NCBI GenBank assembly: GCA_903835385.1
Contig: CAILMQ010000011.1
Span: 1 to 38,681, forward strand
Direction of reading: 5' to 3'
Source of the DNA: an uncultured Microcaldota archaeon
GTDB taxonomy: Archaea; Micrarchaeota; Micrarchaeia; Anstonellales; Bilamarchaeaceae
Length of the DNA: 38,681 nt
The translations under genes and the position numbers were made by a program. The notes below the pieces were generated by a model. It ran no database searches and was not told the origin of the DNA. It worked only from the letters and a program-made list of their open reading frames with translations. Positions 23,349 to 24,337 of the stretch are shown here, piece by piece. Each line of letters begins with the position of its first letter. The stretch's first letter is position 1.

Positions 23349-23591
23349 CTAGGCATCATTAGTATTCTTCTCGATAGATTCAAAAACCTGGAGGTTCCTC
23401 AGCAGGCTGTTGGCAGCCGCCCGGAACGCAACCACGTCGTCCGCTTCTATTTTTATGGTGAGCGATGCGCCGGACAACCGCACCGAGCATGCCGAGCGCC
23501 CGAAACCCTTCTCGCCTGCGAGCGCGGTTGCGGCTGATTTCGCCGCTGCGACGGAATCGAACTCCACCTCAATCCTTCCCTTTGCCTTCAT
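23349..23591 (-). CDS. pcc1: KEOPS subunit Pcc1
   Basis: An 80-residue protein with the Pcc1/CTAG strand-helix layout: GRIEVEFDSVAAAKSAATAL, then SLTIKIEADDVVAFRAAANSLLRNLQVFESI. In KEOPS, Pcc1 forms the dimer core for t6A tRNA modification with Kae1, Bud32 and Cgi121. ATG 23591 is used; GGAAGG-type purines lie upstream. The start overlaps the end of the Brix gene by 23 bases in another frame. Position between Brix and prefoldin beta is the usual one. Confidence 0.85.
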   Translation of the reverse strand: MKAKGRIEVEFDSVAAAKSAATALAGEKGFGRSACSVRLSGASLTIKIEADDVVAFRAAANSLLRNLQVFESIEKNTNDA

Positions 23592-23943
23592 GATCAACGA
23601 CTTCCTTCCTTCCCGACCACCTGGTCTCGTCACCGGAGCCGCGTCTTCTGCCTTTCTTCGACGCGGCTTGTGCCACCGGCTCTTTGGCGCAAGTGGCGAA
23701 ACCAGGTGCCCAGCGCCAGCCGCCCCTTTCCAGGACTTCTACTGATGAGATGAACGCGGGCTTTCCGCCCCTTTCCTCCACGATGCCGACACTCGCGTCG
23801 CCGGCCCTTCTCGCGAATTCGGCGAGAGCGGCGATTGTTTTCTTGCCCCGGGCCACGAAGCGCGCGCCGGATGATGCGGCGAGAGAGCGCGCAGCCTTCC
23901 GCGTCTCCTCGGACGCGTACCTGCTGGTTGTCAGGAGCGCCAT
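23569..23943 (-). CDS. Brix-domain ribosome biogenesis protein, short, with palindromic element in its 3' end
   Basis: A 124-residue protein. Its first 78 residues (LLTTSRYASEETRKAARSLA, then GARFVARGKKTIAAL, GIVEERGGKPAFISSVEV) match the archaeal Brix/Imp4 N-terminal half. Family members bind pre-rRNA during ribosome assembly and normally continue with a second half of similar size. Here residues about 78-108 are encoded by the 91-base palindromic element at 23618-23708 and read as basic low-complexity sequence (KKGRRRGSGDETRW). The conserved second half is not seen, so the gene may be truncated or remodelled by the element. ATG 23943 follows the RpoP-like stop directly (TAGATG). Confidence 0.75.
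   Translation of the reverse strand: MALLTTSRYASEETRKAARSLAASSGARFVARGKKTIAALAEFARRAGDASVGIVEERGGKPAFISSVEVLERGGWRWAPGFATCAKEPVAQAASKKGRRRGSGDETRWSGRKEVVDHEGKGKD
23618..23708. repeat. 91-base palindromic element, copy 2, inside the Brix frame
   Basis: Same length and architecture as copy 1 (5885-5975). The outer stem pairs CACCTGGTCTCGTCAC with GTGGCGAAACCAGGTG with the same single C-A mismatch, and GCCGCGTC pairs with GACGCGGC inside. Relative to copy 1 the end pair is swapped (C-G for G-C), pair 7/85 is G-C in place of G-T, and pair 13/79 is T-G in place of C-G, so pairing is kept. Confidence 0.8.
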
Positions 23944-24081
23944 CTAATCAGTGCCGCATTCCTTGGCTATGGGCGGCCTGGATTTGAGAAGCATCTTCGC
24001 GCCGGATGAAGGGAACTGGAAGTTCTTCTCATCGGCGATGGTCACCAGGGCGCCGCTCTTTAGGTCTTTGTATTCTCCCAT
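23944..24081 (-). CDS. rpoP: RpoP (Rpb12)-like protein lacking all four zinc cysteines
   Basis: A 45-residue protein absent from the ORF track. Between L37Ae and Brix archaea often encode RpoP, the zinc-ribbon subunit of RNA polymerase. Alignment by eye is clear: family YKCxxCG becomes YKDLKSG (D6, S9) and family CPxCG becomes FPSSG (F23, S26), followed by the typical AKMLLKSRPP tail. The CxxC spacing is kept, yet every cysteine is replaced. The frame is intact, the ATG follows GGTTGTATCA, and the stop abuts the Brix ATG, so it looks like a maintained gene. Whether it still joins the polymerase is open. Confidence 0.75.
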   Translation of the reverse strand: MGEYKDLKSGALVTIADEKNFQFPSSGAKMLLKSRPPIAKECGTD

Positions 24082-24091
24082 TGATACAACC

Positions 24092-24325
24092 TCACGACTT
24101 CTCGTATTCCTTGGCCAGGCGGAGCATTATCTCGCCGGTCTCGGTCTTTAGCGCGTAGGCGCCGCCTGCGAATTCGGCATTGCAGGAGCGGCACTTCCAC
24201 AGGGCGTTGCTTTTCCTTGCGACTTTCTTCTTGCCGCAGCGGGGGCACTCGTACCTGGTCCTCTTGGATTTCTCTGCAGCGTCAACGAGCTTCCTTATGG
24301 TCGCTCCGTATTTAGGTGTCCTCAT
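24092..24325 (-). CDS. rpl37ae: Ribosomal protein L37Ae
   Basis: A 77-79-residue large-subunit protein with an intact zinc ribbon, YECPRCGKK and WKCRSCNAEF, and the family tail FAGGAYALKTETG. ATG 24325 has GGTGA six bases before it; ATG 24331, two codons further upstream, is possible. It lies between Rrp42 and the RpoP-like gene, the usual archaeal order. In contrast to its neighbour, all four zinc cysteines are kept. Confidence 0.92.
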   Translation of the reverse strand: MRTPKYGATIRKLVDAAEKSKRTRYECPRCGKKKVARKSNALWKCRSCNAEFAGGAYALKTETGEIMLRLAKEYEKS

Positions 24326-24337
24326 TGCCATTCACCA

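Follow-up and report, generated by a model that had tools for sequence, protein, structure and literature searches.

A putatively zinc-free form of the RNA polymerase subunit Rpo12 (RpoP) in a clade of Micrarchaeota

The window, that is the whole stretch of 38,681 nucleotides analysed here, encodes an RNA polymerase subunit RpoP (Rpo12) in which all four zinc-binding cysteines are replaced. An earlier note had pointed out these replacements in the single gene. Our analysis goes beyond it: the replacement of the zinc ligands in Rpo12 is a trait of a whole clade, made up of the window's family (f1; 43 genomes in 13 genera) and a second family (f8), in which it probably arose once, and the other zinc sites of the polymerase were spared. 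The gene, its former ligand codons and its neighbours are located as follows.

23944..24081, minus strand: rpoP (Rpo12), putatively zinc-free, 45 amino acids, encoding MGEYKDLKSGALVTIADEKNFQFPSSGAKMLLKSRPPIAKECGTD
24064..24066, minus strand: codon GAC for D6, first zinc cysteine position (alignment and sequence)
24055..24057, minus strand: codon AGC for S9, second zinc cysteine position (alignment and sequence)
24013..24015, minus strand: codon TTC for F23, third zinc cysteine position (alignment and sequence; F in 40/40 sequences of f1)
24004..24006, minus strand: codon TCC for S26, fourth zinc cysteine position (alignment and sequence; T or S in 40/40 sequences of f1)
23947..23991, minus strand: conserved C-terminal tail, residues 31-45, LLKSRPPIAKECGTD, common to the cysteine-bearing Rpo12 of the order
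24092..24331, minus strand: ribosomal protein L37Ae (eL43) with an intact zinc ribbon, directly upstream (PF01780, E 1.6e-22)
23569..23943, minus strand: Brix-like rRNA maturation protein, directly downstream (NF002093, E 1.3e-7, under its cut-off)
23349..23633, minus strand: KEOPS subunit Pcc1, true start perhaps further in (PF09341, E 6.5e-13)

On the minus strand, the genes are thus arranged in the order L37Ae, rpoP, Brix-like gene and Pcc1. The rpoP start lies 10 nt past the L37Ae stop, and the rpoP stop codon abuts the ATG of the Brix-like gene. The four ligand positions were assigned by alignment: D6, S9, F23 and S26 occupy the positions that are cysteines in relatives from the same order. 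The neighbouring L37Ae retains its own cysteines (CPRC...CRSC), and its ribbon is likewise kept in the loci shown. The slot is the usual one: across the order, almost every locus has rpoP behind L37Ae, whether or not the protein has its cysteines, and zinc-free and cysteine-bearing proteins have the C-terminal tail K.RPPIAKE..TD in common. The description in the earlier note (a tightly packed, intact frame in the usual rpoP slot, with the family tail kept, all four zinc cysteines replaced and an intact zinc ribbon in the neighbouring L37Ae) therefore stands in every part.

Orthologues are present in 42/43 genomes of f1, and the remaining genome also lacks L37Ae. For G021 and G065, in which profile searches failed, loss of rpoP was considered and rejected; L37Ae is missing there too, so that an assembly gap is likely. 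All f1 Rpo12 sequences that were read lack the four cysteines, and the alignment of RpoP from related genomes, which the earlier note had proposed as a check, contains no cysteine at the four ligand positions in any of the 45 alignable sequences from f1 and f8. This rules out sequencing error or chance, and an assembly error is ruled out because the orthologues agree across many separate metagenome assemblies. Outside the clade, the survey covered Micrarchaeota: in other families of the order and class, all of the roughly 30 Rpo12 sequences that were read carry the four cysteines, including the lowest scorers picked from a phylum sample of 295 genomes, the rest of which was assessed by score only. 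A scan of a genome collection of 85,462 species, based on peptide patterns that would miss distant Rpo12 versions, returned 30 records titled Micrarchaeota, Ca. Micrarchaeum, Ca. ainarchaeum or archaeon. One of these, with a cysteine-free Rpo12, is LFW-283_2, the type genome of Ca. Bilamarchaeum dharawalense, which belongs to the Ca. Bilamarchaeaceae within the order Ca. Anstonellales; f1 therefore probably corresponds to the Ca. Bilamarchaeaceae of the Micrarchaeota.

In f8, five genomes encode a cysteine-free Rpo12 in the same layout as in f1, with I/L/V, T/A, L/I and S at the four ligand positions. A tree of the Rpo2 subunit unites f1 and f8 in one clade with 100/100 support, f8 being nested in f1 or sister to it. 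A single loss of zinc explains these data, and the ligands were probably lost once, in the common ancestor of both families.

The replaced positions are themselves constrained. At the four former ligands, f1 sequences have D/E (34/40), T/S (39/40), F (40/40) and T/S (40/40), respectively. An arginine preceding the third ligand, found in 14/15 cysteine-bearing relatives, is gone in the zinc-free proteins, which have acquired an aromatic residue two positions ahead of that ligand; Y4, K19, F21, F23, P24 and G27 are nearly invariant in the N-terminal half in f1. Across the whole gene, dN/dS is about 0.03-0.12 where dS could be estimated (dS is saturated when the window's genus is compared with its neighbours), indicating purifying selection. 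Conservation and dN/dS rule out a pseudogene, and the decay that would have counted against the earlier note, together with a canonical rpoP elsewhere, is not seen in a frame kept in 42 of the 43 family genomes. Taken together, the constraint at the ligand sites and the low dN/dS argue that the zinc-free N-terminal half is a rebuilt domain under selection and not a product of drift, and the suggestion of a zinc-free polymerase subunit is well supported at the level of sequence.

The picture differs in the genus g28 of f8, whose five genomes measure 0.5-0.6 Mb. Here, a protein of 42-49 residues is found directly after L37Ae (e.g. MKYYLWPKLKEIEVDSLAEFSFAGVHILVKKKPDGPVEVSTD), which is unrecognised by the profiles and ends in the same (V/I)STD. 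Loss of rpoP, to which the failed profile searches might point, was rejected because this diverged reading frame fills the slot; judged by position, size and tail, it is presumably an extremely diverged Rpo12. The loci are L115 and L117-L120 (genomes G055, G080, G082, G081 and G052), and in all five the next reading frame, of about 257-284 residues, overlaps the end of the slot frame. On balance, we lean towards the view that a metal-free Rpo12 ribbon was fixed in this Micrarchaeota clade, with stepwise shrinkage toward a docking peptide in g28, which would form a natural series from ribbon to tail. A changed role, the second suggestion of the earlier note, found no support in the window's family, and five small genomes of f8 may be heading there.

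The divergence of g28 could also be taken to mean that Rpo12 is a decaying remnant, a subunit on its way out whose tail alone is still needed, with filler for an N-terminal half. The eroded N-terminus of Rpo12 in G034 would fit this, as would the finding that a 17-residue C-terminal peptide of the Pyrococcus furiosus subunit (P) suffices to restore most activity in vitro (PMC2680338). However, the conserved residues of the N-terminal half in f1, the constrained ligand positions and the low dN/dS across the whole gene speak against filler, and we regard this explanation as improbable. Binding of a different metal, or of zinc by other ligands, is even less probable: in f1, the first position is frequently D/E and the second and fourth are T/S, which could be read in its favor, but the third position is an invariant F there, the residues of f8 offer no usable ligand set, and the zinc-free proteins have no conserved His or Cys.

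As the zinc ribbon has been lost within the family, orthology to Rpo12 rests on profile, slot and tail. The window protein lacks the CxxC...CxxC ribbon of PF03604, with cysteine at none of the four positions; it does show profile homology, the basic C-terminal tail, the slot next to L37Ae and single copy number. Searched as a single sequence, it gave no match in Pfam, PF03604 included (a cysteine-bearing relative matches that family at 1.4e-8), and only a weak RpoP match in NCBIfam (E 0.1, far under the cut-off). In an hhalign comparison, a profile of 37 orthologues matched the order's cysteine-bearing Rpo12 with 98.2% probability (E 3.9e-14); in the PDB, it detected Rpo12 chains of archaea (E-values 2.2e-4 and 0.0087) and one further match at chance level. 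An AlphaFold2 (AF2) model of the window protein is of moderate confidence (pLDDT 71, pTM 0.37); in a Foldseek search of the PDB with this model, 9/11 matches were Rpo12/Rpb12, none of them significant, and a canonical relative used as control also matched this family, at values that were better yet modest (E 0.013 at best). Membership in a different family, which the earlier note had named as a possible refutation, was thus addressed by profile searches that recovered Rpo12 and nothing else of substance, with slot and tail in agreement. The empty Pfam result and the weak NCBIfam match would also be expected if the slot held a small protein unrelated to Rpo12, but the profile-profile match, the PDB matches and the slot and tail common to both kinds across the order largely refute this, leaving it a very slim chance. 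These results support the window gene as an RpoP/Rpo12 orthologue, to judge from its sequence one without zinc ligands.

The search for a second rpoP that the earlier note had called for found none in the window genome (a draft, 89% complete, in 68 contigs): apart from the single gene, there was one match, within a frame of 1612 aa, and its E of 0.34 is at chance level. A cysteine-bearing profile, whose matches to canonical Rpo12 from this order reach E 1e-19 to 1e-28, likewise detected no canonical Rpo12 in 37 genomes of f1 and five of f8, and a second copy was rejected for the window genome and the related genomes searched. Draft genomes could hide a canonical Rpo12, but with 0/37 f1 genomes matching, the probability of this is negligible.

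A general loss of zinc sites is ruled out by the remaining polymerase subunits and L37Ae. The cysteines of Rpo10 are present in 30/30 genomes read, and both zinc sites of Rpo1' are kept in 14/14 genomes, ten of them in the clade, a count that excludes four genomes skipped by the motif filter. The C-terminal ribbon of Rpo2 is intact in most genomes, so that zinc has not been abandoned in general. At least one cysteine of this ribbon is lost in G011 and G018 (f1; loci L123 and L133), G042 (f7; L149) and G086 (f12; L147), scattered inside and outside the clade. As candidates for compensating changes, four columns in the C-terminal half of Rpo2 set the clade apart and one more has lost a conserved Arg; no clade-distinguishing columns were found in the aligned Rpo3 sequences.

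Several further features of the polymerase genes were observed. In all 11 genomes outside the clade where both genes were located, rpo3 and rpo10 are no more than about 3 kb apart; in 16/16 genomes from f1 and f8, they are on different contigs or separated by 49 kb (loci compared: L151-L180 and L199-L225). The old rpo3-rpo10 operon appears to have been broken up along the branch on which zinc was lost. In three f8 genomes (L134, L139, L142), Rpo2 is read as a single frame of about 1100 codons; the frames of most other genomes, also in f1, span about 605-690 codons, which would fit a split into B' and B''. In Rpo1' of some f1 genomes, including that of the window, the two CxxC pairs of the clamp zinc site are separated by a long insertion of low complexity with many E, K and P residues (L185, L188, L190, L191).

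Based on this evidence, we consider it highly probable that the protein is the sole true Rpo12 of its host, derived from a zinc-ribbon ancestor, with a core rebuilt in metal-free form and docking through the tail. The ancestor of f1 and f8 would have had a zinc-ribbon Rpo12, of which all four ligands were then replaced. The predicted protein would hold no bound metal; its metal-free fold may be built around the invariant F at the third ligand and the new aromatic residue two positions earlier, and T/S at the second and fourth ligands perhaps hold the turns. The conserved FxFPx(T/S)G core is a likely way to avoid misfolding of the N-terminal half. By homology, the tail would dock Rpo12 as a bridge between Rpo2 and Rpo3, and the subunit would act in initiation by helping promoter opening; P. 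furiosus polymerase without P forms no stable open complexes (PMC2680338). In yeast Rpb12, the first cysteine alone is essential (PMC2680338). Since the tail peptide works and most yeast cysteines are dispensable, a zinc-free Rpo12 seems feasible if the N-terminal half is not misfolded. Binding of the C27/30S mutant of P is loose and its function poor (PMC2680338), so zinc loss would not be harmless without compensation, for which the rebuilt core is our candidate.

Compared to archaeal Rpo12 and eukaryotic Rpb12 (PF03604), the window protein is alike in size, L37Ae slot, spacing, glycine/proline turn and C-terminal tail, and differs in the replacement of the four zinc cysteines and of the Arg before the third, and in its new aromatic core residues. 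To our knowledge, known alignments show the zinc ribbon of Rpo12/Rpb12 to be conserved across all of the archaea and eukaryotes. Among bacterial ribosomal proteins, zinc-free (C-) paralogues of L31, L33 and L36 are metal-free versions that replace a zinc ribbon, commonly as second copies beside the zinc form; unlike these, Rpo12 here is single-copy, without a cysteine-bearing partner. Zinc ligands were also replaced in the P. furiosus P C27/30S and yeast Rpb12 mutants (PMC2680338), but those were engineered and partly defective, whereas here four replacements are natural, fixed in the clade and accompanied by surrounding changes. The multisubunit polymerases of ASFV and vaccinia lack RPB12 (PMC10881513) and hence also do without its zinc ribbon; there the whole subunit is missing, whereas the Micrarchaeota clade keeps and conserves it. 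A literature search whose coverage left out most subscription journals found no naturally cysteine-free Rpo12, and a 2026 paper on archaeal polymerase evolution mentions neither zinc nor Micrarchaeota (PMC13257274). As far as we found, zinc-ligand loss in Rpo12 was previously known just from laboratory mutants.

These findings carry a warning for genome annotation: because Pfam misses the zinc-free RpoP and NCBIfam scores it far below cut-off, the subunit may be called absent or hypothetical in genomes of this clade. Mutant work has left the role of zinc unsettled, as some ligand changes cripple the enzyme and others are tolerated (PMC2680338). The clade described here represents a natural experiment, having dropped the metal ligands, kept Rpo12 and left the other zinc sites of the polymerase alone, so that the residues that can replace zinc, and the purpose of the ribbon itself, become testable.
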